A DNA stretch of 64,000 bases. Origin: Arthrobacter sp. CDRTa11. Lineage in GTDB: Bacteria; Actinomycetota; Actinomycetes; Actinomycetales; Micrococcaceae. The stretch lies in the NCBI RefSeq assembly GCF_026427775.1, contig NZ_CP044532.1:2356001-2420000 (forward strand), written 5' to 3'. Below the pieces are notes generated by a model. It was not told the DNA's origin. It searched no databases and saw nothing but the letters and a program-made list of their open reading frames with translations. Position numbers and translations under genes: made by a program. Numbering within the stretch: position 1 is the first letter of the stretch; each line of letters begins with the position of its first letter. This document shows positions 16,379 through 57,057 of the stretch, in pieces.

Positions 16379-16397
16379 TATCCCATAATCCGGGATA
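16379..16397. promoter_or_regulatory. Shared operator, site A (TATCCC-N7-GGGATA)
   Basis: TATCCC-ATAATCC-GGGATA, perfect in both halves. TGGACA just left and GATAGT or ATAGTA at the right edge form a plausible -35/-10 pair (16-17 base spacing) with the palindrome between them. The ADH gene starts 211 bases downstream. Confidence 0.65.
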
Positions 16398-16607
16398 GTA
16401 TATGCGCTAGACTTGCTGGTTAGTTAAGCAACAAAGCTCCCGTTCATTGCTTCGGCCTATGTACAGCGTCTATATCGGGTCGGCGACGTCCGACAGATGC
16501 GGGTGAGCCAACTTCGCCGCGGTGCTCAGAGGAAGTCAATAGTATCTGCCCTCTTCCGGGGGCGAGCGGAAATTCGCCCGAGCATTCATTGAGAGAAGGA
16601 AAAATCT

Positions 16608-17651
16608 ATGCGTGCAACCCTTATGTACGGCCCTGGGGACGTCCGCGTCGAGGGCGTCCCGGATTCAATCATCAGACATCCCACTGACGCGCTGGTCCGC
16701 GTGACCGCCTCATGTATCTGCGGCAGCGATCTGCACCCGTACCACTCCATGTCCCCCGAGGACGGACCCGCCCGGATGGGCCACGAGTTCATCGGCGTCA
16801 TCGAGGACATCGGCTCGGCTGTTGCCACCCTTAAAAAAGGTGATCTGGTGGTCTCTCCGTTCGCTATTTCCGACAACACCTGTGAGTACTGCCGCGAAAA
16901 GATGCATACATCCTGTTCGCACCACGAGGCAGCCTTTTGGGACACCATTCCGGACGAAGGGGGCCAGGCCGAGGCGGCACGTGTACCGTTGGCGGACGGA
17001 ACCCTTGTCAAGCTGCCAGTCGCCGTCGACTCATCCCTCATCCCGTCCCTGCTGACCCTCGCCGACGTCTTTGGCACCGGCCACCACGCCGCCCACGCAG
17101 GCGGCGTCAATAAGCGCACCAACGTCACAGTCATCGGTGATGGGGCCGTCGGGCTGATGGCCGTGCTGGCGGCTAAACGGCTAGGCGCCGAGCAGATCAT
17201 CCTCATGGGCCGGCACAAGGCCCGCACCGACCTCGGCCTTGAGTTCGGCGCCACCGACGTCGTTTCCGCCCGCGGCGACGAAGGCATCGCCCAGGTCCGT
17301 GACCTGACTGGCGGCCACGGCACCCACGTGGTTCTTGAGGCCGTCGGACACATGCCGGCCTATGACCAGGCAGTGGGAGTCGTCCGACCTGGCGGCATCA
17401 TCAGCCGGGTTGGCGTCCCGCAGTACGAGGAGGGTCCGATTGGGTTCGGCAGCCTGTTCCGCCACAACATCAAACTCACTGGAGGACCCGCACCGGTGCG
17501 TGCCTACATTGACGAGCTGCTGCCCGAAATTCTCAACGGCTCCATAGAGCCGGGCAAAGTTTTTGACGTCACCACCAACATGGACGGCATTCCTCAGGGA
17601 TACAAGGACATGGATGAGCGCAGCAGCCTCAAGGTACTCATCAAACCCTGA
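16608..17651 (+). CDS. Zinc-dependent alcohol dehydrogenase
   Basis: A 347-residue medium-chain dehydrogenase. CICGSDLHPYH carries the catalytic-zinc Cys, MGHEFIGVI the second ligand region, and SDNTCEYCREKMHTSC a structural lobe with three visible Cys. LADVFGTGHHAA precedes the Rossmann motif VIGDGAVGL. The Arg in GRHKART where NAD enzymes have Asp hints at NADP, which is uncertain. ATG 16608 follows AGAAGGA. It belongs to a different subgroup from the ADHs at 8580 and 36114, and its nearest relative here is the pseudogene at 1120-1697. It stands alone behind operator site A. Confidence 0.92.
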   Translation: MRATLMYGPGDVRVEGVPDSIIRHPTDALVRVTASCICGSDLHPYHSMSPEDGPARMGHEFIGVIEDIGSAVATLKKGDLVVSPFAISDNTCEYCREKMHTSCSHHEAAFWDTIPDEGGQAEAARVPLADGTLVKLPVAVDSSLIPSLLTLADVFGTGHHAAHAGGVNKRTNVTVIGDGAVGLMAVLAAKRLGAEQIILMGRHKARTDLGLEFGATDVVSARGDEGIAQVRDLTGGHGTHVVLEAVGHMPAYDQAVGVVRPGGIISRVGVPQYEEGPIGFGSLFRHNIKLTGGPAPVRAYIDELLPEILNGSIEPGKVFDVTTNMDGIPQGYKDMDERSSLKVLIKP

Positions 17652-17828
17652 GCCTGACAGAGGAAATCAATCCAGGACCTTTGGGGCCGAAAGAAGATAA
17701 GCGGGGTCGTGACTTTGTAACGGGGGGCGAACCTTCCCATTACAGCCCGTCGTGAGGGCAGTCACCCGGCGATTTTGCGACCGCCTATAAGCAGCCTTCC
17801 ACCAGGCCACGGCCGCTTCAGACAGGAA

Positions 17829-17874
17829 AAAGGAGGCCGACGGCGGCAGTTGCCTGCCACCGTCGGCCTCCTTT
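17829..17874 (+). terminator. Intrinsic terminator-like hairpin
   Basis: A perfect 15-base stem (AAAGGAGGCCGACGG and complement) with a 16-base loop lies 177 bases after the ADH. It may stop transcripts from either side, since the next gene converges. The rest of 17652-18170 shows no gene. Confidence 0.75.
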
Positions 17875-18170
17875 GGTGGCCGTGCCGGGAGGGGAGGCAT
17901 CCCCGATTGGCCTTGCGCAGGCCCGGGCGGCCGCGTTTCTCGGCCATTTGGGTAATCGTGGCGCGTTGTTCATCTGCAGTTCGCCCCGCGGACTGGGCCG
18001 GCCAGCTGTCCTTTCAGTGCAATCGGAGGGGAGGTTCTGCCGGGACGCGGAGTTCCTCGTCAAATCGGACGTCAGCGGAAAAGGGCCCTTGGCCAGGAAT
18101 GGTTTGGTTCCTCGCCGACGGTCCCGGTTCAGGTGGCCTTTGTGCCAGGCCAGGCCTTGGAATTTGCTCC

Positions 18171-21483: not shown

Positions 21484-22470
21484 TCATCTACTGGTGGCTT
21501 GATATAGCCCCGCGGCACGTGCGCGCTGGGTGGCCAGCTCGATCACCAAATCGAGGTTGGGGGTCGGGACCTGCACTAGTTCGGCCAGATCGAGTGGGAC
21601 ACGGAACAGTCCGTCGATCTCCATAGGCCGGCCAGCCGCGAGGTCCTGCGCGATGCTTTGGAGATGGCTGGATGTCGCCAGCTTACTCAAACCCTTGTCG
21701 GGATCGCCCGGGTCACATCCGAGGGCACGGGCGATAGCGACGCCCTCGTCTGCCATCGCCTTGGCGGTGCCGGCAACGGCAGGCTTATCGAGGACGTCCT
21801 TCATGGCCGAAGCGGTAAGGACGCCCAGCGAACCCCCGATCAGGTTCATCACCAGTTTGGCCCATACCGCGTCTCGGATTTTCGGCGTGATGGTGACCTC
21901 CAGGCCACTGGGGTTCAGCAGCGACGCTAGCGTGTCGAGCCTTGCGTCAGGCTGACCGTCAGGGCGTCCGATGATCAGGCGGTTAACTGCGTTCTCGGCA
22001 CGGATCACTCCCGGTGCGATCACGCTGCAGGCGGTGTAGGCCACGGCGCCCGCAGCGCGTTCTGGGCCAACGTGTTCCCAGAGCGCCCCCTTGGGATCCA
22101 GCCGTCGAAGACGGGTGCCGTCCAGGGATCCGCCGTGAGAGTGGAAGTACCACCACGGGATGCCGTTCATGACGAACAGCACCAGACTGTCGCGGTGGAG
22201 CAGGGAAGCGACGTGCTCAGCGATGGTCGGCAGGGATGGGGCCTTCACCGCGACGATGACGACGTCCTGAGGCTCCAGATCCGAGGGCCGGTCGGTCGCA
22301 GCCGGGTGGGAAATCAGGCTTCCGTCACGGGTTTCCACCCGCAGCCCGCGCTGCCGGATCGCGGCAAGTTGCTCACCGCGGGCGATCAGTGAGACTTCGG
22401 CTTCACTCCCTGCGAGCCGTCCGGCGATGTGCCCGCCCACGGCCCCTGCTCCATAGATGCAGATTTTCAT
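21484..22470 (-). CDS. 2-dehydropantoate 2-reductase family protein (PanE/ApbA-like)
   Basis: A 328-residue NADP-dependent reductase. IYGAGAVGGHIAGRL is the N-terminal Rossmann motif, DVVIVAVKAPSLP the next strand, and AVWAKLVMNLIGG holds the conserved Lys and Asn of the ketopantoate reductase C-terminal domain. In a catabolic operon such proteins usually reduce or oxidise a 2-keto or 2-hydroxy acid rather than make pantothenate. It is the fourth gene of a tight minus-strand run SDR-ALDH-aldolase-reductase (gaps of 28-35 bases), probably transcribed from operator site B. Confidence 0.9.
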   Translation of the reverse strand: MKICIYGAGAVGGHIAGRLAGSEAEVSLIARGEQLAAIRQRGLRVETRDGSLISHPAATDRPSDLEPQDVVIVAVKAPSLPTIAEHVASLLHRDSLVLFVMNGIPWWYFHSHGGSLDGTRLRRLDPKGALWEHVGPERAAGAVAYTACSVIAPGVIRAENAVNRLIIGRPDGQPDARLDTLASLLNPSGLEVTITPKIRDAVWAKLVMNLIGGSLGVLTASAMKDVLDKPAVAGTAKAMADEGVAIARALGCDPGDPDKGLSKLATSSHLQSIAQDLAAGRPMEIDGLFRVPLDLAELVQVPTPNLDLVIELATQRARAAGLYQATSR

Positions 22471-22498
22471 GTGTGCTCCCTGTTCCGGATTGTGCCGA

Positions 22499-23287
22499 CT
22501 ATTCGAACTGTTGACGCTTTTGTGCTGCCGCGCCGCTCAGGAATGAAATGTCGTTCCCCGTGGAAACGTAGCCGGCACCGAGATCGAGATACTTGCGGAT
22601 GAGATCCGGCCGCCCGCCAAGTCCACCGATACCTACGGACTTTCCGTTCGCCTGGCAGGCCTTGATGACCTGAAGATACGCCTCGTGCACCCGCGGATGG
22701 TCCATCTGCCCGGCAACACCAAGCTCGACGCTGAGGTCGTTGGCACCCACGAGGATCATGTCCACACCGTCTACTGACGCGATGGCTTCCACCGCGTCCA
22801 GGCCTGCCTGCGACTCGATCATCGGCACCACCATGGAGGCCGAATCAAGCTCACGGACGACTTGATCTGCCGGCAGGGTGCGATAGTGAAGCTGGGGCGC
22901 GGCCCCTGCCAGGGAACGTTCGCCCAGCGGCGCATGCTTGACGGCACGAACCAAAGCGCGCGCCTCCTCGGCCGACTCCACCCCGGGGACGATGATCCCC
23001 ATTGCACCGGAATCCATGACCCTGGCGATGAACGACGGGTCCAAGCCGGGCACGCGAACAAGAGGAGTGACGCCGAGGTGATTGCTGGCAAGGCAGATTT
23101 GACCCGCCGCCTCCAGGGAAAAGCTGCTGTGCTCCATATCGATGTAAATGGAGTCAAAACCTGCGGTGTAGGCGATAGATGCGATGTCGACGGTCCGCAC
23201 CAGACGGACTGTCATGGAATACACTGTCTCGCCCCTGGATAACTTTTCCTTGGCGTGATTGCGCAGCAGTGGGGCTTCGTTGTTCAT
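22499..23287 (-). CDS. HpcH/HpaI-family aldolase
   Basis: A 262-residue class II pyruvate aldolase. FDSIYIDMEHSSFSLE, LVRVPGLDPSFIARVMDSGAMGIIVPGVESAEEA and MVVPMIESQAGLDAVEAIASVDGVDMILVGANDLS carry the conserved Arg, Glu and Asp that hold the metal and 2-keto acid. Family members cleave 4-hydroxy-2-keto acids to pyruvate plus an aldehyde, or run in reverse. The aldehyde could feed the ALDH encoded directly upstream. ATG 23287 follows AGGAGA. Placed third in the SDR-ALDH-aldolase-reductase run. Confidence 0.92.
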   Translation of the reverse strand: MNNEAPLLRNHAKEKLSRGETVYSMTVRLVRTVDIASIAYTAGFDSIYIDMEHSSFSLEAAGQICLASNHLGVTPLVRVPGLDPSFIARVMDSGAMGIIVPGVESAEEARALVRAVKHAPLGERSLAGAAPQLHYRTLPADQVVRELDSASMVVPMIESQAGLDAVEAIASVDGVDMILVGANDLSVELGVAGQMDHPRVHEAYLQVIKACQANGKSVGIGGLGGRPDLIRKYLDLGAGYVSTGNDISFLSGAAAQKRQQFE

Positions 23288-23318
23288 GTTCTATGTCTCC
23301 TGATCGACTTGGGTTGTT

Positions 23319-24770
23319 TCAGCCGAAGAGAGCCGGCAGTTTTTGGGCCTCGTCTTCGAACCCGTAGACGGATTTGGTTTCGAGGTATTCTTCAAGTCCG
23401 AATCTGCCCATGGAGCGGCCGATGCCTGACTGCTTGTATCCGCCCATGGGCGTGTACGAATCCGTGGCGGCGCCGTTGTAGCTGATTCGCCCGGCACGCA
23501 GCCCGTTTACCACACGGCGGGCGTTGGTCTCGTCGCCGCCAAAGACGTAGCCTCCGAGCCCGTAGGGGGAATCGTTGGCGATCCGTAGGGCTTCTTCCTC
23601 GTCACGGTAGGGGATGACGGCGAGGACGGGTCCAAAGATTTCCTCCCGGGCGATCGTCATGTCCGGTGTAACCCCAGTGAATACTGTGGGCTGCACGAAA
23701 TAGCCATGTTCCAGGCCCTCAGGGCGCTCAAGCCCACCGGTGACGAGGTTGGCTCCCTCATCGATACCGGTTTGAATCAGGTCCCTAATCGACTTGTACT
23801 GGTCGGCACTGACGACCGGACCCATTGTCGTGGAGTTTTCCAGTGGGTCACCGAGGCGGAAGCGTTGAGCCTCATCGACGAGGAAGGGGACAACCTGCTC
23901 CATCTGGCTCTCGTGCACCAGCATGCGCGTAGGGGCATGGCAGGACTGACCAGCATTAAAGAAGCTGCGTTGAATGTTCCAACGGGCAGCTTTTTCGAGG
24001 TCTGCGTCGGGCAGCACGATGTTGGCTGACTTTCCACCCAGTTCGAGCGAGACGCGCTTCACTGTTTCGGCGGCGGCGGCCCCGACCTGCTGCCCGGCAC
24101 CGGTGGACCCAGTGAAGGAGATCATGTCCACGCCGGGGTGGCGGGACAGCGCATCGCCCACGACGCGGCCTGTCCCGTTCACCAGGTTGAACACACCCGC
24201 CGGTACGTTGGCCTCGTGCAACACCTGGGCAAGGAGGGTGCCGCTGGCTGCGGAGTTAATACTGGGTTTGGCTACAATAGTGCAGCCTGCAGCCAGCCCA
24301 TAAATGATCTTGATGACACCGGTTTGGATTGGCCAGTTCCATGGTGAGATCAGCGCGCAGACGCCGATCGGCTCGCGTCGAACAATGGCGCCACCGATTC
24401 GCGACTCGAATGGGTAGTCTCGCAAGATGTCGCGGGCCACCCGCATGTGGTCTGCAGGGCCCATGACCTGGGCTCGGCTGCTGACGGGGATGCCCACTTC
24501 GCGCGCAATCAACTCGGAGAACTCGTCGGTGTACGACTCGTAGACGTCGATGATGCGGTCGATCAGCGCTATTCGTTCGTCCACCGATGTGGTGGAAAAG
24601 CTTTCGAACGCACGTCGCGCTGCGGCGACCGCGCGGTCTACGTCCGCAGCGCTCCCCAACGTGACCCGGGCGAAGGCCTCCTCGCGGGTGGGGTCGATGA
24701 GCTCCACCTCGCGGGCGTTGATCGGGTCAGTCCATTTACCGTCGATGTACAGGTGCGGGTACTGCTTCAT
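23319..24770 (-). CDS. Aldehyde dehydrogenase
   Basis: A 483-residue ALDH. ISPWNWP, FTGSTGAG, the Glu in LELGGKS, the catalytic Cys in NAGQSCHAPTR, EEIFGPVL and GGYKQSGIGRSMG are all in place. The open frame runs on to 24932, but ATG 24770 follows CAGGAGAA and matches the usual family start (HLYIDGKWTDP). It is the second gene of the minus-strand operon after the SDR (35-base gap). Likely oxidises a small aldehyde released by the aldolase or made by the SDR. Confidence 0.93.
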   Translation of the reverse strand: MKQYPHLYIDGKWTDPINAREVELIDPTREEAFARVTLGSAADVDRAVAAARRAFESFSTTSVDERIALIDRIIDVYESYTDEFSELIAREVGIPVSSRAQVMGPADHMRVARDILRDYPFESRIGGAIVRREPIGVCALISPWNWPIQTGVIKIIYGLAAGCTIVAKPSINSAASGTLLAQVLHEANVPAGVFNLVNGTGRVVGDALSRHPGVDMISFTGSTGAGQQVGAAAAETVKRVSLELGGKSANIVLPDADLEKAARWNIQRSFFNAGQSCHAPTRMLVHESQMEQVVPFLVDEAQRFRLGDPLENSTTMGPVVSADQYKSIRDLIQTGIDEGANLVTGGLERPEGLEHGYFVQPTVFTGVTPDMTIAREEIFGPVLAVIPYRDEEEALRIANDSPYGLGGYVFGGDETNARRVVNGLRAGRISYNGAATDSYTPMGGYKQSGIGRSMGRFGLEEYLETKSVYGFEDEAQKLPALFG

Positions 24771-24805
24771 GGTCGGGGTTCTCCTGTGGTGGCGTGTGGG
24801 GTGGG

Positions 24806-25630
24806 TTAGCTGCTGTGGGTGTAGCCGCCGTCGCAGGCGATGGTTTGGCCGGTGATGAATGCGGCGGCGGGGGTGGCCAGGAAGAACATGATGCCGACGA
24901 GGTCGGTGGGGACCATTCCGCGGGGGATGCACTGCAGGGACGCGGCGCGTTCGCGGACTTCGGCGGTGGGGTTGACGGTGCGTTCGACTTCGGTTGCGAC
25001 GCTGCCGGGCCGGATGCAGTTGACGGTGATCCCGTGGCTGCCGAGTTCGCGGGCCAGGGAGTTGGTCATGCCGATCAGTGCTGATTTGGAGGTGACGTAG
25101 TGCAGGTAGTTAGCGGTGCCGCGGGTGACTGCGTCGGATGAGATGTTGATGATGCGGCCGAAGCCTGCTTTGCGCATATGGGCAGCGACTGCCTTGACGC
25201 AGAGGTAGGTGCCGGTGATGTTGACCTTCAGCACGTTTTCCCACTGATCCAGGGGAATCTGGTCGAACGGGCCCTTTTCGATGCTGGCGAAGATCGAGGC
25301 GTTGTTGATCAGCACATCGATCCTGCCCCATGTTTGGATCACGGTGTCGACCATGGCCGTGACGGACGCTTCGTCGGCCACGTTCACCTTTACGGCCAGA
25401 CCTACCCCGCCGGCGTCATGAATTTCCTTCACGACTGCTTCGGCCTTGTCGATGGCGAGGTCAGCTACCACGGCAACGGCTCCGGCCGCGGCGAACTGGC
25501 GCGCGAGTTCCCGGCCGATGCCCTGGGCTGCGCCGGTGACAATGACCACCCGCCCCTCGACGCTGAAGTCCCGCGCTGATGCCGGCACGCCGGAGTCATG
25601 GGGAATGTGAGTCAGGGGTGTCGTCGTCAT
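24806..25630 (-). CDS. Short-chain dehydrogenase/reductase, copy 1
   Basis: A 274-residue classical SDR. VTGAAQGIGRELA is the cofactor loop, VLINNAS the NNAG position, and YVTSK the catalytic Tyr/Lys, with RPGSVATEVE and ITGQTIACDGG at the C-terminus. ATG 25630 follows GAGGA; the frame runs further upstream without sense. It is the first gene of the run SDR-ALDH-HpaI aldolase-reductase and diverges from the cupin gene across operator site B. Copy 2 at 32255-33079 differs by a single Val/Ile exchange that I could find. Confidence 0.93.
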   Translation of the reverse strand: MTTTPLTHIPHDSGVPASARDFSVEGRVVIVTGAAQGIGRELARQFAAAGAVAVVADLAIDKAEAVVKEIHDAGGVGLAVKVNVADEASVTAMVDTVIQTWGRIDVLINNASIFASIEKGPFDQIPLDQWENVLKVNITGTYLCVKAVAAHMRKAGFGRIINISSDAVTRGTANYLHYVTSKSALIGMTNSLARELGSHGITVNCIRPGSVATEVERTVNPTAEVRERAASLQCIPRGMVPTDLVGIMFFLATPAAAFITGQTIACDGGYTHSS

Positions 25631-25771
25631 GGTCGATCCTCGTGGTTTCGCGTCGTGATGGTCGTGCAGGCAGTGGTGAACGGGGTGCTGTCCTGGACAG
25701 CAATGACCCATAACCGGCTGGGCGTTATCGGGAAAACAGGAGGCGGTGTGCCCGGCCTTGCTATTGAACAA

Positions 25772-25790
25772 TATCCCGTCATGTGGGATA
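25772..25790. promoter_or_regulatory. Shared operator, site B, inside face-to-face promoters
   Basis: TATCCC-GTCATGT-GGGATA. Rightward: -35 TTGAAC (25764-25769), 17 bases, -10 GATAGT (25787-25792), toward the cupin. Leftward, read on the minus strand: TTGACA (25797-25792), 18 bases, TATTGT (25773-25768), toward the SDR. The two core promoters occupy the same bases and the palindrome fills their spacers, so a bound repressor would shut both. Confidence 0.75.
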
Positions 25791-25896
25791 GTGTCAATGG
25801 ACGGCGACCGGTCTGCACGATAGCAGCGGCGGACCGGACGCCGCGCCCCCCGCGGATCTTGCCGGGGGATGACTCGACTTTATAAAGGAGCTGGAG

Positions 25897-26736
25897 ATGC
25901 GCGTAAGCAAGGCAGCGGATACCGATATCGAAGCAGTCGGATCCATGCGTGAGGGAGTACTGGACCAGAAACACCTGCTGTTCGGTGAGGACGGCTCACC
26001 GAACAATTACGACCTGAACATGGGCCACACCGGCGGCGGTGGGTGGCGGACCCCGCGTCACCGGCACAACTTTGACCAGGTCCGCTACGTGATCAAAGGC
26101 CGGCTGCCCTACTCCGAGGAGGATTTCCTGGAGGAAGGCTGGGTCGGGTACTTCCCCGAGAGTGTCCACTACGGCCCGCAGGAACGCGCCGAAGGCCTCC
26201 GCACACTGGTTCTCCAGTCCGGCGGCGCCAGCGGCCAGGGCTACCTGTCCGTCGCCCAGCGCGAAGCGACCAACGCTGATCTGGAAAAGACCGGCGAGTT
26301 CAAGAAGGGTATGTACCACTACACCGACGCCAACGGCGCCGAGAAGGTCGTGGACGGCTCCCAGGCGATCTTCGAACACGCCACCGGTGGCAAGCTCGAA
26401 TTCGCCACCCCCCGCTACGAAGACGTCATCGCCATGAACCCAGACGCCTACGACTGGCTCCCCTCAGCCGATCAGGGCGTGGCCGAGAAATGGCTGGGCA
26501 CCTTCACCGAGCGCAACTTCCGCATCGGCTTCGTCCGCCTGGATGCCGGCGCCGTTTACCAGGCAGGCCAGTTCCCCTCCATCGAAATCCTGTTCCAAAC
26601 CAAGGGCCAGGTCACCGCAGGCGGCGAAAAATACGGCCCCGAAACCGGATACGAATTCCTCGCCAACGAAGGCCCCGTACCCCTCGAAGCCATCGAACCC
26701 ACCGAATTCCTCCGCTTCGTCCTCCACACCTTCTAA
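25897..26736 (+). CDS. Two-domain cupin-like protein, copy 1
   Basis: A 279-residue protein of cupin type. WRTPRHRHNFDQVRYVIKGRLPYSE matches the first cupin metal motif (HxH followed by Gln/Glu and a Gly turn). The C-terminal part (RIGFVRLDAGAVYQAG, EILFQTKGQVTAGGEKYGPETGYEFLANEG) reads as a second jelly-roll without the His pair. No signal peptide. Enzymatic isomerase/dioxygenase or sensing roles are both possible; I cannot name the family. ATG 25897 follows AAAGGAGC. An identical-looking second copy is at 31149-31988, and a GC-rich hairpin follows the stop. Confidence 0.8.
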   Translation: MRVSKAADTDIEAVGSMREGVLDQKHLLFGEDGSPNNYDLNMGHTGGGGWRTPRHRHNFDQVRYVIKGRLPYSEEDFLEEGWVGYFPESVHYGPQERAEGLRTLVLQSGGASGQGYLSVAQREATNADLEKTGEFKKGMYHYTDANGAEKVVDGSQAIFEHATGGKLEFATPRYEDVIAMNPDAYDWLPSADQGVAEKWLGTFTERNFRIGFVRLDAGAVYQAGQFPSIEILFQTKGQVTAGGEKYGPETGYEFLANEGPVPLEAIEPTEFLRFVLHTF

Positions 26737-26751
26737 ACCACCACGGGCCAA

Positions 26752-26775
26752 CACGGGGCCCACAAGGGCCCCGTG
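26752..26775 (+). terminator. Hairpin after cupin copy 1
   Basis: CACGGGGCCC-ACAA-GGGCCCCGTG, a perfect 10-base stem 16 bases after the stop, followed by a C-rich run rather than T residues. It may partly insulate the racemase gene from the cupin transcript. Confidence 0.6.
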
Positions 26776-26916
26776 CTCACCCCCACCCCCCCGCGGGCAA
26801 GCACACGGAAGATCAAAGCCCGCATCTCCAACTAGTTGGAGCCACCCATGCATACCAGATCTGCCCTGATGAATCTTCAGACGCGTCAGGCATCCACACC
26901 AAAGGAAGTAACCAGC

Positions 26917-27594
26917 GTGCCCAAGAAAATCGCGATTCTGCACACAAGCTTTGTTTTCGTTTCTGTCGAGCCTGTGATCAATGACCTCATTGCTGAGCTC
27001 ATTCCCGATGCTGAAGTCATGCACTTTGTAGACTCCGACGTACTGGCAACAGTTGTGCGCGAGCAAGGTATTTCACCCAACAGTGAGGCACGAATGACCC
27101 ATCTGGCGCAGGCGGCTGAAGCAGCAGGCGCGGACATCATCTTCTCCGCATGCTCTTCCTTGGGACCGGCTCTGGACGTCGCCGCCCGAAACGTTCATAC
27201 CCCTGTGGTGAAAATTGACGAGGCGATGGCGCTGACCGCCGCCCGTGAAGGCAACCGCATTGGCGTCCTGGCCACCGTACCCACCACGCTTGGTCCGACA
27301 TCTGATCTGATCCAGGCAAAAGCAGATGAAATCGGGCGCAGCATCACACTCGAGCAGCGGTTGTGCGAAGGAGCATTCTCAGTCCTCATGTCGGGGGACC
27401 GCGAAAAGCACGATGCCATGATCATTGAGCAGGCGACGGATCTCGCCAAAAACGTTGACATGATCGTTCTTGCGCAGGCATCCATGAACCGTCTTGCCGG
27501 GGTTCTCCAGGAGAAGACCGGGATGACCGTGCTGTCGAGCCCCCGTATCGGCGTGGACTACCTCGCTCAGCGCGTCGCGGAGCTCCCCGCGTGA
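26917..27594 (+). CDS. Asp/Glu racemase family protein
   Basis: A 225-residue protein of the aspartate/glutamate/hydantoin racemase superfamily. It starts PKKIAILHTSFVFV; FSACSSLGPALD carries the first candidate catalytic Cys and RLCEGAFSVLMSGDREKHD the second Cys region. MIVLAQASMNRLAG is the typical penultimate segment. GTG 26917 has AAAGGA 10 bases upstream; an ATG at 26836 in frame encodes an unlikely leader. Racemases of this group also include maleate isomerases and decarboxylases, so the reaction is open. It follows the cupin on the same strand. Confidence 0.87.
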   Translation: MPKKIAILHTSFVFVSVEPVINDLIAELIPDAEVMHFVDSDVLATVVREQGISPNSEARMTHLAQAAEAAGADIIFSACSSLGPALDVAARNVHTPVVKIDEAMALTAAREGNRIGVLATVPTTLGPTSDLIQAKADEIGRSITLEQRLCEGAFSVLMSGDREKHDAMIIEQATDLAKNVDMIVLAQASMNRLAGVLQEKTGMTVLSSPRIGVDYLAQRVAELPA

Positions 27595-28568: not shown

Positions 28569-29420
28569 TTAACGGGTGAGGGTGGCCAGGGCGCTGACAG
28601 CGAAATTCCTGGCTGAGGTGTTCCAATGACCCAGTAAGCTCTGGAGGTTTTCGCCGTCGGCACGGTGGCCTGGCAGCTGCTCCTGCAACGTGGCGAGCAC
28701 GCCAGTACGAAGTTCGGTGTTGAAGTTTACCTTTCCCACGTTCATGGACGCCGCCTTCATCAGTTCCTCCGCAGGGATGCCGGAGGCACCGTGCAGCACC
28801 AAGGGAATGTGAGTCCGCACCGCGATGTCTTGCAGTACGTCCCAGCGCAGCCGGGGCTCACCCTTGTACCTGCCGTGGACGTTGCCGACCGCCACTGCCA
28901 GCAGTTCGGCGCCGGTGCGGGACACGAAGTCCTCCACCTGCGAGGAGTCGGTCAGGCCGGCCACGGACACACCGGACTGGTCAGCACCGAACGCCCGGTC
29001 CTCATCACCGGCAAGGCCGCCCAGCTCTGCTTCAAGCACGACGTCGGGACCCAGCAGAGCGCGGGCCGCAACGACCAGTGCAATGTTGTCCTTGTAGGGA
29101 AGGGAGGAACCGTCCGCAAGGACGGAATCCGCCCCCGCCGCGACGGCATCGACCATCACTTTCAGGTCTGAGGCGTGGTCCAGCTGGACCGCCACGGGAA
29201 CATCGGCGGTGTCCGCCAGGCCCCGAAGCGCTGCCATCAGCCGCAGGCCGTTTGGGGTTGCGGCGGTTTTGGGGGCAACGAGTAGGATGACGCCGCGGCC
29301 GGCTTCCTCTGCCGCCCCCACCACAGCCAGGGCGGTGGTGAAGTCGTAGCAGGTGAACGCGGGAACGGCCGAGCCGTGCTGCAGGGCGGAGGTGACCAGG
29401 TGGTCCAGTCGAGTACGCAT
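28569..29420 (-). CDS. Class II fructose-bisphosphate aldolase family protein
   Basis: A 283-residue zinc aldolase of the FbaA/KbaY/GatY family. VPAFTCYDF, the zinc ligand region VAVQLDHASD, VLEAELGGLAGDED, GNVHGRYKGEPRL and LVLHGASGIP carry the conserved Asp, Glu and His residues, and KVNFNTELR the phosphate-binding end. It is shorter than true FbaA, as in tagatose-type and sugar-acid aldolases. It lies 85 bases after the four-carbon acid kinase on the same strand, so the pair probably phosphorylates and then cleaves a sugar acid. ATG 29420 is preceded by an in-frame TTG. Confidence 0.92.
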   Translation of the reverse strand: MRTRLDHLVTSALQHGSAVPAFTCYDFTTALAVVGAAEEAGRGVILLVAPKTAATPNGLRLMAALRGLADTADVPVAVQLDHASDLKVMVDAVAAGADSVLADGSSLPYKDNIALVVAARALLGPDVVLEAELGGLAGDEDRAFGADQSGVSVAGLTDSSQVEDFVSRTGAELLAVAVGNVHGRYKGEPRLRWDVLQDIAVRTHIPLVLHGASGIPAEELMKAASMNVGKVNFNTELRTGVLATLQEQLPGHRADGENLQSLLGHWNTSARNFAVSALATLTR

Positions 29421-29505
29421 CAAACGCCTAGGCCTTTCATATGATCCAGTGGACGAATGTCAGGACGATCCTGGCTCGGCTCAAGTTCGTCCTGAAATTT
29501 CCGGG

Positions 29506-31008: not shown

Positions 31009-31109
31009 TATTTACTCCGTTGTAATGAAAGGTTTCGGTAAAGCTCAATTCGTGCTGGTTGCGTCCGAATTTGCTGTATATCTGGTCACCCGTGGGGGGT
31101 GGGGGTGAG

Positions 31110-31133
31110 CACGGGGCCCTTGTGGGCCCCGTG
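31110..31133 (-). terminator. Hairpin after cupin copy 2
   Basis: Mirror copy of the hairpin at 26752-26775, here lying between cupin copy 2 and the kinase gene. Confidence 0.6.
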
Positions 31134-31148
31134 TTGGCCCGTGGTGGT

Positions 31149-31988: not shown

Positions 31989-32094
31989 CTCCAGCTCCTT
32001 TATAAAGTCGAGTCATCCCCCGGCAAGATCCGCGGGGGGCGCGGCGTCCGGTCCGCCGCTGCTATCGTGCAGACCGGTCGCCGTCCATTGACAC

Positions 32095-40631: not shown

Positions 40632-40649
40632 GGTGAGGGCGATCCGTGG

Positions 40650-43541: not shown

Positions 43542-46120
43542 CAAGCCAACTCACACCGCCGCCGTCGCGAAGGATCAAAGGAGAACACGAAGTGGAAAAA
43601 ATTGTGGACGTGGGGACTTCCCATTCCGGCTCTCTGACTGCAGAGGTGGACTCCAAGCAGCCGGCTGTAGTCCTTACCGGAGTGTCCAAGTCGTATCCGG
43701 GCGTGAAGGCGCTCACAAACGTCAATTTCGACTGCCGGCCGGGGGAAGTCCACGCGCTCGTGGGAGAAAACGGCTCCGGGAAGTCCACCCTCATCAAAAT
43801 CGCTTCGGGCGTACTCACGCATGACACTGGCGAAGTCACCATCGGAGGTCAGTCGCTGGCCGGCGGGTCAGTAAAACGCGCCCGCAAACTCGGTCTCGTT
43901 ACCGCATATCAGGACACATCCTTGGTTGAGGAACTCACCGTCGCGGACAACATTGCGCTCTCCTTCAACGCCATTGGCGAGCCGCGCCCGTCGGATCTTG
44001 ACCGGCTGCTTGCCCGCTATGACCTGCCGTTTAAACCCACGGACCTCGTAGGCGCACTGGGTCCCGGCGCACGCCAGCTCCTCGAAGTCGCGAGGGCCAT
44101 GAGCCACCAGCCACGTGTCCTGATGCTTGACGAGCCCACCGCTGCCCTGGACATGCAGTACGCGGCACACTTGGAAGAGCTGATCCGGCAGTCCCGCGAC
44201 GAGGGGGTCGCCATTGTTTATGTCAGCCACCGCTTGGAAGAGGTCCGCCGCCTTGCCGACAGGCTTACTGTCCTCCGCGACGGGGTGATCCAGGGAACCT
44301 ACAGTGGCCGGAACTGGGAAGTGGACGAAATAGTTGAAGTCATGGTCGGTGCCCCAACCGACCTTGAGTTCCCGACTCGAACGCCGACTAAGGCGCAGAC
44401 CAACAGGCTGGAGGTTCGGGACCTGTCCGGGCAGGGCTACGGCCCCGTATCGATCAACGTTCGTCCAGGCGAGATTGTCGGCGTCGCAGGTGCGGAAGGC
44501 AACGGACAGAGAGCCTTACTACGCGGCCTCATCGGTGAAAAACGCACTTCGGGAGAGATCCTGGTCGACGGCAAGCCCGTTGGACGGGGCGGTCCGTCCG
44601 CGGCTCTGGATGCCGGCATCAGTTTCCAGAGCGGCGATCGCGCTGTGGAGTCTGTCTATAGCGAGCTGTCTGTGATGGAGAATGCTACTGCCCAGCTGGG
44701 TCCTGAAAGCGGCCCCTTCGGCCTTGCCCTGCCCAGTCGCCTTCGGGAGGCCTTCGGTAAGGTGTCGAAGCAGCTCGGCATCGTGGCCGCATCGCCCTAC
44801 CAGCCAATCAGTGGCCTCTCGGGGGGTAATCAGCAAAAAGCTGTCCTTGCCAGGCCAGCTTTGCGACCCCCCAAGGTGCTGGTCGTCGATGAACCGACTC
44901 AAGGAGTTGATGCAAGGGCGCGCATGGACATCTACCGCGTCTTGTCCGGCGCGGCCGAGGAAGGAATGGCCGTTCTCGTAAATTCCTCAGACTCAGCTGA
45001 ACTGGCGGGGATGTGTGACCGGGTCTATGTCATGTCACGCGGCACCGTCGTCCAGGAGTTGGCGGGGCCGACGACAGAATCCGCTATCGTCCGCAGCTTC
45101 GTCAGCGCGGCTGGCGTAGACCAGAATCACGTTGACCAGATACCCAGCAATGCTGGTCTGGCGTCGCGACTCATCGCGCGCGCCTCCTCGAATTTCCCCA
45201 TTCTTGCTCTGTTGTTGCTGACGGCAATTGTGGCGGGGTACGCCGGCAGCCAGTCGCCGTTCTTTTGGACGTGGCCCAACCTCGCGAACATGCTGATCAT
45301 CGCATTGCCCTTGGCTTTCGTTGCCCTTGGACAGCAATTCACCATGCTTTCGAGAGGCTTTGACCTTTCGGTCGGTTCAACGATGAGTCTTACCGTCGTC
45401 CTTGTCTCGATGACGCTCCCGGATCTGAGCCCCGCTTCCTTAGCGGGAACGATCCCCTTGCTCCTTCTGGTCGCGGCGGCAATCGGGGGTTTCAACGCCG
45501 TGCTGATCGGCTGGCTGAAAATCAACGCCGTCGTTGCCACCATCGCCACCATGGGCATCGTCCAAGGCATCGCCATCATCCTCCGGCCCGCACCGGGCGG
45601 TGTCATCGCGCCGGACCTCGGGACTGCTGTCAGCCTCGGCGTCGCATTCGTGCCAGCTCCATTTATCGGCCTGGTCGTGTTGACCATCGCACTCGAGCTG
45701 TGGCTCTATCGGAGCCGGTCTGGGCTGGCCGTGCGAGGTGCCGGCTTCAACCCGGAAGCAAGCCGAAGGATCGGCCGGCAGGTCGGCGTCATTCGGGCCG
45801 TCGGACTTCTCGTGTGTGCCCTCGGGGCGGTCGTCGGAGGCGTGCTTCTGGCTTCCCAAACAGGCATCGGATCGAACGCCGTGGGCGCAACATATTCGCT
45901 TCCCGCGTTCGCCGCAGTGTTCCTGGGAGGGGCCGTCATGACCGGCGGCAGGGGCTCCTTCATCGGTGCGCTCCTGGGAGCCGTGTTCCTCTCGCTACTG
46001 GACAACGTCACCCCGCTGCTGAACATCCCCAACGCGACCGAGCAGGTCATTTACGGCATCATCCTGCTCGTTGCCGTGTCCGGCTACACAGTGGCCCAGC
46101 GGGTACGTACACGGAAATGA
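43538..46120 (+). CDS. Fused ABC transporter: double ATPase plus permease (RbsA-RbsC type)
   Basis: An 860-residue fusion. Residues about 40-280 form the first ATPase (Walker A GENGSGKST, Walker B VLMLDEPTAALD, unusual signature LGPGARQ). Residues about 290-525 form the second ATPase (degenerate Walker A GAEGNGQRAL, signature LSGGNQQK, VLVVDEPTQGVD), as in RbsA. Residues about 540-860 form a complete RbsC-like permease (QQFTMLSRGFDLSVGSTMSL, RGAGFNPEASRRIG loop). Usually these are separate genes. ATG 43538 overlaps the upstream stop; GTG 43591 with a strong AAAGGAG site is an alternative start. No frameshift or stop separates the parts. Confidence 0.92.
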   Translation: MTSQLTPPPSRRIKGEHEVEKIVDVGTSHSGSLTAEVDSKQPAVVLTGVSKSYPGVKALTNVNFDCRPGEVHALVGENGSGKSTLIKIASGVLTHDTGEVTIGGQSLAGGSVKRARKLGLVTAYQDTSLVEELTVADNIALSFNAIGEPRPSDLDRLLARYDLPFKPTDLVGALGPGARQLLEVARAMSHQPRVLMLDEPTAALDMQYAAHLEELIRQSRDEGVAIVYVSHRLEEVRRLADRLTVLRDGVIQGTYSGRNWEVDEIVEVMVGAPTDLEFPTRTPTKAQTNRLEVRDLSGQGYGPVSINVRPGEIVGVAGAEGNGQRALLRGLIGEKRTSGEILVDGKPVGRGGPSAALDAGISFQSGDRAVESVYSELSVMENATAQLGPESGPFGLALPSRLREAFGKVSKQLGIVAASPYQPISGLSGGNQQKAVLARPALRPPKVLVVDEPTQGVDARARMDIYRVLSGAAEEGMAVLVNSSDSAELAGMCDRVYVMSRGTVVQELAGPTTESAIVRSFVSAAGVDQNHVDQIPSNAGLASRLIARASSNFPILALLLLTAIVAGYAGSQSPFFWTWPNLANMLIIALPLAFVALGQQFTMLSRGFDLSVGSTMSLTVVLVSMTLPDLSPASLAGTIPLLLLVAAAIGGFNAVLIGWLKINAVVATIATMGIVQGIAIILRPAPGGVIAPDLGTAVSLGVAFVPAPFIGLVVLTIALELWLYRSRSGLAVRGAGFNPEASRRIGRQVGVIRAVGLLVCALGAVVGGVLLASQTGIGSNAVGATYSLPAFAAVFLGGAVMTGGRGSFIGALLGAVFLSLLDNVTPLLNIPNATEQVIYGIILLVAVSGYTVAQRVRTRK

Positions 46121-46238
46121 TGTTGGCGACGGGTCAAAGACGCTCAAAAAAATGAGGAGGAGACGTACGGGATGGCAATGACGGCCGCAACGGGCCTTCG
46201 CTGACCCCGAAGTCTGATTTAGTGATTATTGGTCCCAA

Positions 46239-46276
46239 GCTTGCAGGGCTGGCTTATCCGGCCCTGCAAGCCTCTT
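46239..46276 (+). terminator. Intrinsic terminator after the ABC operon
   Basis: GCTTGCAGGGC pairs with GCCCTGCAAGC over an 11-base loop and is followed by CTCTTT, 118 bases after the fused transporter gene. Confidence 0.82.
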
Positions 46277-46313
46277 TACCGCCATGCCCCCGCTGACAAG
46301 AAGGAGCCCAATC

Positions 46314-46724
46314 TTGCGCGCAAGCCAGGAAATCGTCAACCTGCTGACCGAGTACTACGCCGCGATGGAGACTAACCAACCTGACCGGTACGGCAAGTAC
46401 TTCGCTTACGACATAACTCTGACCTTTGCTCCCGCACCCACCATCACCGGTCGCGATGCGGCGCTCACTGCCATGGCGGGATTGCTTGGCCGGGTGCGAT
46501 CGTTGCACCACGATCTGGTCAACGTATGGGAAGAAGACGAAGGCGTTGTCATTTTCGAGTCTCTCGGCGTCTGGCACCTCCACAACGGGAGGAGCGTGTC
46601 AATCAAGGCATGCTCCGTCTTCACTGTTGAAAATGGCAAGTTCACGGACCAGCGCATCTATGTCGACAATTCGCCCCTCTTCGAACTGCTCGATGAACCC
46701 GTGGCGGCCAGCCCGTCGTCGTGA
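46314..46724 (+). CDS. SnoaL/NTF2-like protein
   Basis: About 136 residues with the pattern of the SnoaL-like polyketide-cyclase/NTF2 fold: EIVNLLTEYYAAMETNQPDRYGKYFAYDITLTFAPAPTITGRDAA, then HHDLVNVWEEDEGVVIFESLGVWHLHNGRSVSIKACSVFTVENGKFTDQRIYVDNSPLF. Family members are small lyases, isomerases or binding proteins. I place the start at TTG 46314, 7 bases after AAGGAG, rather than ATG 46284, which precedes that site. It follows the ABC terminator and is probably transcribed separately or by read-through. Confidence 0.8.
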   Translation: MRASQEIVNLLTEYYAAMETNQPDRYGKYFAYDITLTFAPAPTITGRDAALTAMAGLLGRVRSLHHDLVNVWEEDEGVVIFESLGVWHLHNGRSVSIKACSVFTVENGKFTDQRIYVDNSPLFELLDEPVAASPSS

Positions 46725-46840
46725 GGGACTCCTCTCCGTACACACGTACGGGGACCAATGGTCACCCGGGCGCGAAACCTGATCAACGGGTCCTGGATCA
46801 TCCAAAATGACATCACCGCGCGAGGACTTGTTGTTTAGCA

Positions 46841-46859
46841 AATCCCATTGTATGGGATA
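46841..46859. promoter_or_regulatory. Shared operator, site D
   Basis: AATCCC-ATTGTAT-GGGATA; its core ATCCCAT-TGT-ATGGGAT is a perfect 7-3-7 palindrome. A perfect -10 box TATAAT lies just right of it at 46862-46867. Downstream is only a decayed region with one doubtful small ORF. Confidence 0.65.
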
Positions 46860-47033
46860 TTTATAATATTCAGGATTAGGTTCCCACTAAGCGGGCGATG
46901 GCACCTGAAGCGGACGCGGCAGGCACTCATCCTGCCTGGGGAAGAGCGACCCTCCTGGGCCAGTCCGCTCCCGCTTTCCAAATGGCTGACGGCTCCGCAT
47001 GGGGCCGCATCCGTCGTACATCGAGAGGAGAAC

Positions 47034-47426: not shown

Positions 47427-48124
47427 CCCTTGACTAAAGAATCCGCCGACGGAGGGGTGTTGAAGTGGCAGACACTTCAGCGAACTCAGCGGCTTCAACA
47501 CCAGTAATGCGGGGCTGGCCCGTGCTCGGTGGTGGACAAGCCTTGCAGAGCGGAGGGTCGCCGCGACGGGTGCAGTGTGGTCGTGCCACCCAGCTCGAAA
47601 ATTCGCGGCGGGGACGCCATCATCGCGATCCTCAATGCGCTCACGGCCAGGACCCGATCTCTGATGTTTACCATGGCATACCGAATGGATCAGTGACGGG
47701 CCACGATTTCGTCTGCCCAGTCGAGGAGCCGGGCAGCAACGAGCTGGTCCGACGTTCCCCCTGCTCTAACGAGGAAACGATCCACCATGCAGGCCCCTTC
47801 TTCGTGAACAGTTCCAGAACGCGCAAAATCAAATCCAGGATTAACGAACCCCGTCCACCCACGTGAGCAACCATCCTCGTATCGTCGACCCGTCACGCGG
47901 GCACACCAACAATTTGTCATATCTCATAGTGTAGGATATTGGTAACTCTTTGGGAATGCTTTTGGAATGCCTAACTTGAGCCGCGCCGCTGGGCGCATCG
48001 CCTCACGTGTCGCAGCCCGCAGGGGGTGAAAGTCTGGGAACGCGTACTTTTGGCTGGGGGAGCGCAGGCGTAGAAGCGCCTGGCCCAGTATTTCCAGCGG
48101 AACTCCCGGATACCTCGATCTCGT
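47427..48124. other. Decayed gene-free stretch
   Basis: About 700 bases without a complete gene. One plus-strand frame ends with a protein-like stretch (SSKIRGGDAIIAILNALTA) before a stop near 47697. A minus-strand frame reading RLLDWADEIVARH starts near the same place. Both look like ends of lost genes that I cannot identify. Operator site E lies at 47920. Confidence 0.4.
47920..47938. promoter_or_regulatory. Shared operator, site E (degenerate, orphan)
   Basis: TATCTC-ATAGTGT-AGGATA keeps the 7-base spacer. No intact gene starts on either side, so it is probably a relic of a lost promoter. Confidence 0.45.
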
Positions 48125-55445: not shown

Positions 55446-55977
55446 AGTCGTCAAGGGTAAGTGCCCGAAGCAATCGGGTGCGTCAAGCGCGGGCAGCGCG
55501 CCTGGATTTGGGTTTGCTCGTTGCCCGGGGTGCGCCAAGAGAGCGTTACGAGGGCCCGGCCGTACGGGTCCGGTATCCACCGCGCGCGCCGAACTGAGAC
55601 TAGAGGCATGCGGGCCCGGTGCTATTTGTCGGGAACTACCTTGGGATTAGGGCATCGGTCGCCTGGAACCCCTCCACTGAAGGCTTACTACTCTAGGGTG
55701 AGAGCTAATCCCGCAACGCGGGCTCAGTGTCGAAAGGAGGCCACGGGTAGGGCGGCTCAACTTGGCTGGTCCCGTAACGGAACTATCGTGAGAAGCTTTC
55801 AACCGGGCTCCTCAATTCTGGGCGATGAGACGGCGTTGGTATTGCGGCACGCGCCGGGTCAGTGCAGCCGGCCACAGCGATTTGCCTGTAGATCGCAACG
55901 GCCCTTACAAAAGGGCCTTTGGGTCATCATGGAGAACTCCAGAAAGGCATTTGACCTGTTTTAGAGCTATGAGTAAC
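55446..55977. other. Gene-free intergenic stretch
   Basis: About 530 bases without a supported gene, between two copies of the putative IclR operator. It holds one terminator-like hairpin (55900-55920). A plus-strand frame at 55461-55964 has no family likeness and no ribosome site of note. Confidence 0.5.
55900..55920 (+). terminator. Small terminator-like hairpin
   Basis: GGCCCTT-ACAA-AAGGGCC followed by TTT. It stands ahead of the IclR promoter without a gene before it, so it may end an unseen small RNA or be fortuitous. Confidence 0.45.
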
Positions 55978-55995
55978 GTTCATATATAAAACTAT
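55978..55995. promoter_or_regulatory. Putative IclR operator ahead of the IclR gene
   Basis: Reverse complement reads ATAGTT-TT-ATATATGAAC, matching the site before the divergent SDR operon at 14 fixed positions. It lies about 50 bases upstream of the IclR start. Confidence 0.55.
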
Positions 55996-56043
55996 GGTGC
56001 TGGCCTGAGCGGCTTAGCGCTGGCCGAATTAGGAGCAGTCGTC

Positions 56044-56853
56044 GTGGACACGGAAACAAGTGAGAGCAAGTATCGCGCACCGGCCCTGGCGAAGGGGCTC
56101 GAAATTCTTGAACTCCTCGCTTCGGCGGAAGCCGGACTCAGCCAAGCCGAGATCGGCAAGACGCTCGGCCGTACCACATCGGAGATTTTCCGCGTGCTGA
56201 TGGTGCTGCGTGAGCGCGGCTACGTAGAGCTAGATAGCGGTGAGCGTTATCACCTGACGACGAAACTGTTTGAGGTCGCTCACCGTCATCCAATCATTCG
56301 GCGTTTGACGGCAATCGCCGGCGATGAGATGCAAAAACTTGCCAATCGCATAAGCCAAAGCATTCACCTCTGCATCCTCAATTCCGGGAAGTTGCTGGTT
56401 ATCGCTCAGGTCGACGGTCCAGATACCAACGTAAATACGGTCCGTCTCGGTGCGCAGATTCCCATCGACGACTCTGCATCTGGCCGGGTCCTTGCCGCGT
56501 TCATGGAGGAAGAGGAACTCTCGCATTTGCTGGCGCTCGCAGGCAACGAGACAAGTGCTCGCCGCGCGCGATTTCTTTCCGATCTTACCGAGGTACGCAA
56601 AGCTGGGTTCTGCCAAGGGCCGTCGCTCACAATTCAAGGAGTAACGAACATTTCGGCCCCGGTGTTTGACCATACCGGTAAGGCCGTGGCTGCGATCACG
56701 GCGCCTTTTATCCATCGCCTATCGGGCATGGAGACAGTGCCCGTGGAGCAAGCCCGCGAGATGTTGGTCCAAACTTGCCGGGAATTGTCCCGCCGGATGG
56801 GTGCAGGCGTCACTGAAGATCAGACGGACGAAAAGGTCAACAAACACCCATAG
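56044..56853 (+). CDS. IclR-family transcriptional regulator
   Basis: A 269-residue IclR regulator. APALAKGLEILELLASAEAGLSQAEIGKTLGRTTSEIFRVLMVLRERGY is the winged helix, RYHLTTKLFEVA the linker, and IHLCILNSGKLLVIAQVDG with ASGRVLAAFM the effector domain. GTG 56044 follows TAGGAG. It diverges from the SDR-SMP30-PrpD-MFS-ALDH group. A repeated AT-rich motif stands at both promoters, so it most likely controls that group and itself. Confidence 0.92.
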   Translation: MDTETSESKYRAPALAKGLEILELLASAEAGLSQAEIGKTLGRTTSEIFRVLMVLRERGYVELDSGERYHLTTKLFEVAHRHPIIRRLTAIAGDEMQKLANRISQSIHLCILNSGKLLVIAQVDGPDTNVNTVRLGAQIPIDDSASGRVLAAFMEEEELSHLLALAGNETSARRARFLSDLTEVRKAGFCQGPSLTIQGVTNISAPVFDHTGKAVAAITAPFIHRLSGMETVPVEQAREMLVQTCRELSRRMGAGVTEDQTDEKVNKHP

Positions 56854-57038
56854 GGCTCAACTAAGACCTGGGCGTCCCGGGCCAAATGCGGATCGTGGCC
56901 GCTTCTAGGAGCGACCGACCCCTTCTGCACGGCTGTATTGGCCCATGGGTAGGGCGCTAGTGTCCTTCTCAGCCGTGTTATCCGTTGGAGCGAGGTAGGA
57001 CTGCCTGCGCTTAACCGAACAAGGCTTCGAGGTGGCTG

Positions 57039-57057
57039 TATCCCGATATATGGGATA
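57039..57057. promoter_or_regulatory. Shared operator, site G
   Basis: TATCCC-GATATAT-GGGATA, perfect in both halves. It stands 140 bases upstream of the universal stress protein gene, the only gene on that side, and 185 bases after the IclR stop. No other feature was seen in the 340-base gap. Confidence 0.65.

Follow-up and report, generated by a model that had tools for sequence, protein, structure and literature searches.

Which protein reads the palindrome TATCCC-N7-GGGATA, which recurs ahead of many operons in a 64-kb stretch of the Arthrobacter sp. CDRTa11 genome (positions 2,356,001 to 2,420,000 of contig NZ_CP044532.1; hereafter the window, to which coordinates refer unless stated otherwise), and what would its binding do there? 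A preliminary description of the window listed six strong sites, two degenerate ones and a possible ninth, read them as one shared operator, and named an IclR-family protein encoded at 33458–34270 (hereafter IclR 33458) and an XRE protein encoded at 1792 as possible binders. We compared the palindrome and these regulators within the 5.16-Mb source genome (G000), among genomes of the same genus and class, and at distant loci. Our results make it very probable that the palindrome is the operator of IclR 33458, with predicted control of its own operon and others, about ten transcription units in all, within one catabolic island. We favour IclR 33458 because (i) the regulator and a profile-level operator co-occur in the genus and in distant phyla, (ii) a site precedes iclR and (iii) the core of the operator fits that of the published group-1 operators of the IclR family.

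Distribution of the palindrome

All coordinates listed in the preliminary description are correct. Over the 12 fixed bases of the core there are no mismatches at 16379, 25772, 32095 and 57039, one at 42151 and at 46841, two at 47920, and three at 37414 and at 14668. The six sites described as strong thus have at most one mismatch each, but they do not count as six separate cases: 25772 and 32095 are not independent because they are copies within a perfect inverted repeat of 2009 bp (24783–26791 and 31094–33102; 100% identical). With up to two mismatches allowed, the window holds eight matches against 1.41 expected (standard deviation 1.29), and none of 100 shuffles got to eight. The exact pattern occurs four times in the whole genome, each time inside the window, while the reversed pattern, used as a control, has no exact match in the genome. 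If the spacer is allowed to vary from 0 to 30, there are seven exact places genome-wide, four with N7 and one each with spacers of 17, 21 and 29, in agreement with the fixed 7-base spacer reported earlier. The two-mismatch comparison with the reversed pattern (22 vs 99) was set aside as proof because the reversed pattern has a different composition. Eight sites in the window and its flanks were checked against gene assignments and none lies well inside a gene, as the preliminary description had it; 46841 and 57039 overlap only the starts of over-long, mechanically called open reading frames (ORFs).

The inverted repeat itself contains a cupin gene, the operator and a short-chain dehydrogenase/reductase (SDR) gene. 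Another genus genome, G185, has the same inverted arrangement, with proteins ∼95–98% identical, and the duplication therefore looks old, yet its identity is maintained within the genome, perhaps through gene conversion.

The whole-genome matrix scan suggested in the preliminary description was made with a profile (R1) built from 31 sites of other species and none from G000. Among the 150 of 640 first-look candidates that were scored, R1 gives 11 places at E ≤ 10, and ten of them fall within 2350888–2413061 of the genome, an island of ∼62 kb that starts 5 kb before the left edge of the window and ends at window position 57061; the eleventh place has an E value of 0.7. In window coordinates the ten places are about −5106, 13149, 16379, 25772, 32095, 37414, 42151, 46841, 47920 and 57039. 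Site 37414, rightly called degenerate with its three mismatches, is nevertheless recovered by this held-out profile, while 46841 and 47920 are weak in the same search (E values in Table 1). The possible site at 14668 was not recovered among the scored candidates and is weak, but it is supported by its position, as G185, G186 and G051 carry sites before the orthologous MFS gene. The same kind of support holds for a site at 13215, as G185 and G186 carry sites before the orthologue of a second IclR gene at 13392 (IclR 13392).

Sites 13149 and 13215 are additional to the earlier list, as is one 5 kb left of the window (G000:C1:2350894, window about −5106, L040:14894-14912). The last reads TATCCC-N7-GAGAAA with GTCAA and is flanked by an isocitrate lyase/PEP mutase family-like gene and an ABC permease gene, both recognized by eye. 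Given this site, the regulon may extend past the window.

Within the genus, protein and profile searches covered 204 of the 206 genomes. An orthologue of IclR 33458 (E ≤ 1e-60) is present in five of them and R1 matches (E ≤ 0.01) in six, i.e. the same five and G064, in which iclR spans two contig ends (85% identity over residues 10–90 and 82% over 156–269). The remaining 198 genomes showed neither the gene nor a profile-level operator. Fisher's test gives 2e-9 for 5/5 vs 1/199 and 1e-11 for 6/6 vs 0/198. In a sample of the class that includes a few genus members, none of 393 other genomes has the orthologue and none has an R1 match at E ≤ 0.001. These 393 genomes and the 198 genus negatives lie outside the training set of R1, and both profile scans used stricter filters. 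A scan for exact cores, which is free of training on other genomes, finds them in eight of the 206 genus genomes, and four of these (G000, G185, G186 and G051) have the regulator.

A search by alignment of six orthologues, with a query that used part of the recognition helix, led to 31 loci with an IclR relative in named genomes, including Streptomyces, Sinomonas, Modestobacter, Microbacterium, Rhodococcoides, Pedococcus, Pseudomonas and Rhizobiales. The number of independent loci is smaller: L042/L045, L049/L056 and L053/L054 share a genome or a near-identical region, and L043 is a contig of G051. The pair of operator and regulator is found again in Streptomyces, Sinomonas, Modestobacter, Rhodococcoides and Pseudomonas. 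Nine of the 31 loci have an exact core. A core with at most one mismatch is present in 13 of the 16 loci in which IclR identity is ≥68%, in 2 of 9 at 45–60% and in none of 6 below 45%. The recognition helix SRSTGYRYIK is retained in 15, 7 and none of the loci in the same three classes. Of 30 loci that carry either an IclR relative or DNA of the island, 18 have R1 matches at E ≤ 1; the Paracoccus pBEN plasmid carries two (E 0.002 and 0.004). In L042, L044, L049, L052 and L056 the site lies, as in the window, between a divergent pair of operons, one for SDR, aldehyde dehydrogenase (ALDH), aldolase and a ketopantoate-reductase-like protein (KPR) and the other for cupin.

Spacing and placement were surveyed in 28 sequences (731,439 bases), some of which were chosen by motif and one stretch of which is present twice. 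With a spacer of 7 there are 21 exact sites, 22 that have one mismatch and 30 that have two, while each of the other 15 spacers between 0 and 15 gives no exact, 0–2 one-mismatch and 6–22 two-mismatch sites; many of the two-mismatch sites may therefore be chance. The distinct sites number 70 (19 exact, 21 one-mismatch and 30 two-mismatch), and rough gene calls, made by homology and ORF length, place 65 of them outside called genes. With the exact matches of the genome confined to the island, the motif is not as frequent in coding or random DNA as in promoters, which agrees with the intergenic role first proposed for it. In brief, evidence from the genome, the genus and the distant loci supports one operator shared by many operons.

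IclR 33458 as the predicted regulator

IclR 33458 has an N-terminal HTH_IclR domain (PF09339, E 1.3e-9) and a C-terminal effector domain (PF01614, E 3e-16), both above gathering scores. Its sole NCBIfam match at E ≤ 1e-20 is TIGR02431 (PcaR/PcaU/PobR), at 85.5 bits against a curated cut-off of 284.75, which places it outside that family; the PcaR/PcaU/PobR operators tabulated by Suvorova & Gelfand (2021, PMC8222616) are also unlike the operator described here. Site 37414 precedes the operon of the regulator, which consists of genes for alcohol dehydrogenase (ADH), ALDH and IclR, and is a probable operator for autoregulation. An exact site also precedes iclR in L044 and L049 (Streptomyces), L046 (Sinomonas) and L055 (Pedococcus), with its centre 20–21 bp before the start codon. 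Among the regulators of the island, only IclR 33458 has an orthologue both in the G185 and G186 islands and on the 20-kb G051 contig. Its candidacy, put forward in the preliminary description, is thus well supported by co-occurrence with the operator and by the position of the site before iclR.

This IclR is present in two copies in G185 and G186, and also in G051 and G192, but in one copy in G000; copies lie at L032:8344-9147 and 14996-15760, and at L036:15092-15892 and L037:3720-4523.

Several observations weigh against this assignment. The sixth position from the centre of the operator is C, where published group-1 operators have T. The genome run with R1 scored only part of its candidates, and the training sites came from four of the six positive genus genomes (G185, G186, G051 and probably G192), none being from G000 or G064. 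One exact core each, mostly with a GC-rich spacer, occurs in G059, G123, G190 and G191, which are outside the orthologue and profile positives of the 204 genomes searched; these cores are probably chance or another site. Conversely, G192 and G064 have the gene and imperfect sites only. The helix SRSTGYRYIK was rejected as a predictor of the site because its record is mixed: at 45–60% identity seven of nine loci keep the helix and two of nine have a core with at most one mismatch, and the site therefore weakens before the helix changes. Twelve of the 30 loci searched with R1, mostly from Proteobacteria, gave no match at E ≤ 1, and the related plasmids S. meliloti pAK76, Sphingobium pEP1 and Caballeronia pNK81 gave none either. 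Finally, the island travels as a unit, so other island genes also co-occur with the operator in the genus, and orthologues of another IclR gene of the window, at 56044 (IclR 56044), are present in both G185 and G186 and also in G051 (82%), there on a different contig.

This joint movement is what favours the reading that the operator is that of a different regulator encoded in the island (IclR 13392, IclR 56044 or XRE 1792) and that IclR 33458 merely travels with it, the more so as IclR 13392 also has orthologues in G185 and G186. We consider this reading very unlikely, since the distant loci separate the candidates. No relative of IclR 13392 or IclR 56044 exceeds the threshold in the 5–21 kb compared at each of the 31 loci, nine of which carry exact cores, and both were rejected, though an IclR 56044 orthologue lies on the other G051 contig; moreover, the promoter of IclR 13392 holds a different palindrome, of the type TGGAAC-N3-GTTCCA. 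Relatives of XRE 1792 (49–55%) occur in 4 of the 31 loci and are absent from L044, L050, L052 and L055, all of which have exact sites, so the alternative binder named in the preliminary description was rejected as well. Still less credible, and in our judgement next to impossible, is that the matches arose by chance or by the copying of a single mobile sequence: 25772 and 32095 are indeed copies of one repeat, but the other sites differ in spacers and flanks, and the shuffles, the spacer controls and the 393 other genomes contradict chance. IclR 33458 remains the preferred binder.

Promoter geometry and proposed mechanism

The full element is longer than the palindrome first described. An alignment of 27 sites from G000 and three relatives of the same genus (both strands counted; two sites are the inverted-repeat copies) gives an element of ∼33 bp, TTGAC-N2-TATCCC-RYWWWRY-GGGATA-N2-GTCAA. 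In the symmetrised sites, the outer box has T at −7 in 85%, A at −4 in 87% and C at −3 in 63%, and the inner spacer has R in 100%, Y in 86% and W in 81% and 86%.

TTGAC is a usual −35 element. The outer TTGAC may be read as a −35 element (TTGACN), followed by an 18-bp gap and by TAnnnT as a −10 element, on each strand, which would place the CCC-N7-GGG core within the −35/−10 gap. Divergent operons would then have a promoter on both strands, interlocked such that each −35 overlaps the opposite −10. A dimer of IclR 33458 would recognize TATCC-CRYWWWRYG-GGATA, a site of the IclR group-1 type. As the core would lie within the gap shared by the two promoters, binding would exclude polymerase from both together, and we infer repression by occlusion. 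A pathway metabolite, perhaps of the sugar-acid type, would release the protein.

The sites that serve one direction are consistent with this geometry. Of the two outer boxes, the upstream TTGAC is the better one at 21 of the 31 sites of this kind, the worse at 7 and tied at 3 (Wilcoxon p 0.009), and among the 18 with at most one core mismatch it is better in 15 and worse in 1. The final −10 base is a weak argument, being kept in 25 of the 31 sites in the served direction vs 22 of 31 in the other. In the four loci with an exact site before iclR (in-frame start codons GTG, GTG, ATG and ATG in L044, L049, L046 and L055), the start codon lies 29, 29, 29 and 30 bases from the first base of the core, i.e. 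7–8 bases past the predicted −10 and within one base of the predicted transcription start. These positions refer to the four loci only; in L044 an in-frame ATG precedes the start by one codon, and L055 lacks the final T in its −10. Leaderless messages are common in actinobacteria, and a leaderless transcript would explain a start codon at the predicted transcription start.

Two other readings of the element have to be weighed against its role as a repressed promoter pair. The outer TTGAC/GTCAA boxes could instead be half-sites for a second IclR dimer, in which case the 33-bp element would be a four-box tetramer operator. These boxes are symmetric and fairly conserved at −7 and −4, tetramer binding and three-box sites are both on record for IclR proteins (PMC8222616), but the one-directional sites keep the upstream box oftener than the downstream one, as expected of promoters and not of symmetric operators, and the iclR start codon in four loci matches the predicted transcription start; we therefore hold the tetramer operator to be unlikely. 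A small but slightly larger share of our belief goes to the possibility that IclR 33458 acts at these sites as an activator, or as activator and repressor in one, given that the IclR family contains repressors, activators and dual regulators (PMC8222616). Against it stands the placement of the core between −35 and −10, a position that would usually block polymerase, and repression by IclR 33458 is the effect that we would expect. The 33-bp element could be a self-contained two-way switch, in which interlocked face-to-face promoters hold an IclR operator in their shared spacer and are able to start a leaderless iclR transcript. Such a switch would have served several times over to connect the genes of a large local regulon, a second IclR among them, and both the switch and its regulator would recur in lineages of actinobacteria and proteobacteria. 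On this composite reading our opinion is evenly balanced.

Regulon content and known systems

The predicted targets, named by their Pfam families, are ADH, ALDH and iclR; PrpD; SDR, ALDH, HpcH aldolase and KPR; cupin and racemase; a kinase and a class II aldolase; and two solute-binding proteins, a sugar-type ABC transporter and SnoaL (Table 1). The MFS transporter, the second ADH, UspA and the second IclR are probably targets too, and the putative operon limits follow gene order. Comparisons with NCBIfam and the PDB point to broad families only and name no substrate: the nearest solved relatives are IRG1 and IDS-epimerase for PrpD, ketopantoate reductases for the KPR-like protein, sugar-binding proteins for the solute-binding proteins and HpcH/HpaI aldolases for HpcH, while the kinase and the racemase have no solved relative at E ≤ 0.001 in the PDB. 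We take the pathway as a sugar-acid-type route with aldolase cleavage. The regulon unites PrpD-like, ketopantoate-reductase-like, HpcH aldolase, SBD_N/NBD_C kinase, class II aldolase and cupin genes, probably of one catabolic route, and the sites help to mark the genes of this route in other genomes.

Table 1. Predicted operators, their proposed regulator and putative targets in window coordinates
Feature	Position	Strand	Basis
IclR-family regulator, proposed binder of all sites below	33458..34270	-	Pfam HTH_IclR + IclR_C; co-occurrence with operator
Operator (core 37414-37432) between ADH-ALDH-iclR (-) and PrpD (+)	37407..37439	.	R1 E 0.0013; outer boxes TTGAT/GTCAA
Operator, exact core, between SDR-ALDH-HpcH aldolase-KPR (-) and cupin-racemase (+)	25765..25797	.	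R1 E 7.7e-6; same place in L042, L044, L049, L052, L056
Operator, exact core; copy of 25772 in the inverted repeat, flanked by cupin-kinase-aldolase (-) and second SDR copy (+)	32088..32120	.	Pattern + R1
Operator with 1 mismatch, flanked by genes for two solute-binding proteins (-) and for the sugar-type ABC transporter (+)	42144..42176	.	R1; same place in G185, G186, G051
Operator, exact core, before zinc ADH (+); upstream outer box alone kept (TGGAC)	16372..16404	.	Pattern + R1
Operator, exact core, before UspA-like gene (ATG near 57198)	57032..57064	.	Pattern + R1
Operator, 1 mismatch, before small conserved ORF (46848-47426, mechanical call)	46834..46866	.	R1 E 0.07
Weak operator-like site, 2 mismatches, in stretch without recognized gene	47913..47945	.	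R1 E 0.25
Weak operator-like site, 2 mismatches, before second IclR gene	13142..13174	.	R1 E 0.017
Degenerate site TATCCG-N7-AGGATT-N2-GTCAA, the positionally conserved one before second IclR gene	13208..13240	.	Alignment with G185 and G186 promoters
Degenerate site before MFS gene	14661..14693	.	Same place as sites in G185, G186, G051; not recovered by R1
Targets: ALDH (34581-36080) and zinc ADH (36114-37142), then iclR	34581..37142	-	Pfam
Target: MmgE/PrpD family protein	37610..39004	+	Pfam; nearest solved relatives IRG1, IDS-epimerase
Targets: SDR, ALDH, HpcH/HpaI aldolase, ketopantoate-reductase-like (core conserved operon)	21484..25771	-	Pfam; loci of relatives
Targets: cupin and Asp/Glu-racemase-like genes	25897..27594	+	Pfam
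Targets: cupin copy, SBD_N/NBD_C kinase (PF07005/PF17042), class II aldolase	28569..31988	-	Pfam
Targets: two Peripla_BP_4 solute-binding proteins	39179..41933	-	Pfam
Targets: ABC permease, fused ATPase-permease, SnoaL-like	42483..46724	+	Pfam
Probable target: second IclR-family regulator	13392..14237	+	Pfam; promoter alignment with G185, G186
Probable targets: MFS transporter (14766-16067), zinc ADH (16608-17651)	14766..17651	+	Pfam; positional conservation
Probable target: universal stress protein	57032..57625	+	Pfam

Relatives of the small ORF at 46848–47426 have an exact site in G186 and a one-mismatch site in G051. The two adjacent genes for solute-binding proteins are related to each other (81% identical over 300 nt); operator 42151 would drive both of them and, divergently, the permease. 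The palindromes TGGAACTCGGTTCCA (13123–13137) and TGGAACCAGGTTCCA (13190–13204) precede IclR 13392. At the place of the second, a site of the TGGAAC-N3-GTTCCA type is also present in G185 (one change) and G186; it resembles the IclR group-2 operator and is probably the regulator's own putative site. Its presence beside a predicted site of IclR 33458 suggests a regulatory cascade. Elsewhere in the window, a 271-bp inverted repeat (1–271 and 48989–49259; 98% complementary and 48.7 kb apart) lies at the edge of an ALDH gene, and two diverged direct repeats (8116–8524 and 19584–20035; 87–91%) are separated by ∼11.4 kb. The latter of these lies at the 3′ end of the aldo/keto reductase gene, and the pair possibly reflects a decayed gene copy.

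The published consensus of IclR group-1 operators is GKTYCRYW3-4RYGRAMC, with a subgroup WTTYCRYW3RYGRAAW (Suvorova & Gelfand 2021, PMC8222616). Like the group-1 sites presented there, the operator of the island is an odd-length palindrome with a YCRYWWWRYGR core and was reached by phylogenetic footprinting, and its spacer agrees with the central YCRYW3RYGR. It differs at position 6 from the centre, where C stands in 98% of the sites in place of the group-1 T, and in its flank, TAT, which is neither GK nor WT. The site centre 20–21 bp before iclR in four loci is close to the most frequent position of −22 in that study, whereas the distance to the gene at other operons reaches 100 to several hundred bp here and is mostly 20–80 there. 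About ten transcription units over 62 kb also contrast with the control of self and one or two adjacent operons that it describes as typical of IclR proteins. In its Table 1 the nearest site is that of GenR from Corynebacterium glutamicum, ATTCC-N7(5)-GGAAT. GenR is likewise an actinobacterial IclR protein, its half-site spacing is equal, and ATTCC and ATCCC differ by one of the five shared bases; GenR, compared here by its site, serves 3-hydroxybenzoate/gentisate genes, and among the Pfam matches of the present targets none names an enzyme of that kind.

The main text of PMC8222616, as distinct from its supplements, names neither Arthrobacter nor GGGA. We found no named regulon with this operator in our searches of open-access literature, in line with the preliminary description, and the analysis proposes an operator and a regulon for an IclR clade for which neither was found there. 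A further comparison is offered by the bidirectional promoters of Warman et al. (2026, PMC12825309), for which pseudo-symmetric DNA is likewise proposed to support divergent transcription. The promoters treated in that paper start around or within one shared −10, whereas here, judged by sequence geometry, each −35 would overlap the −10 of the other promoter, with the operator between them. The operator and its regulon are best read, with good support, as an unnamed and unusually large local IclR regulon of an otherwise ordinary kind, with a promoter design that is possibly uncommon.

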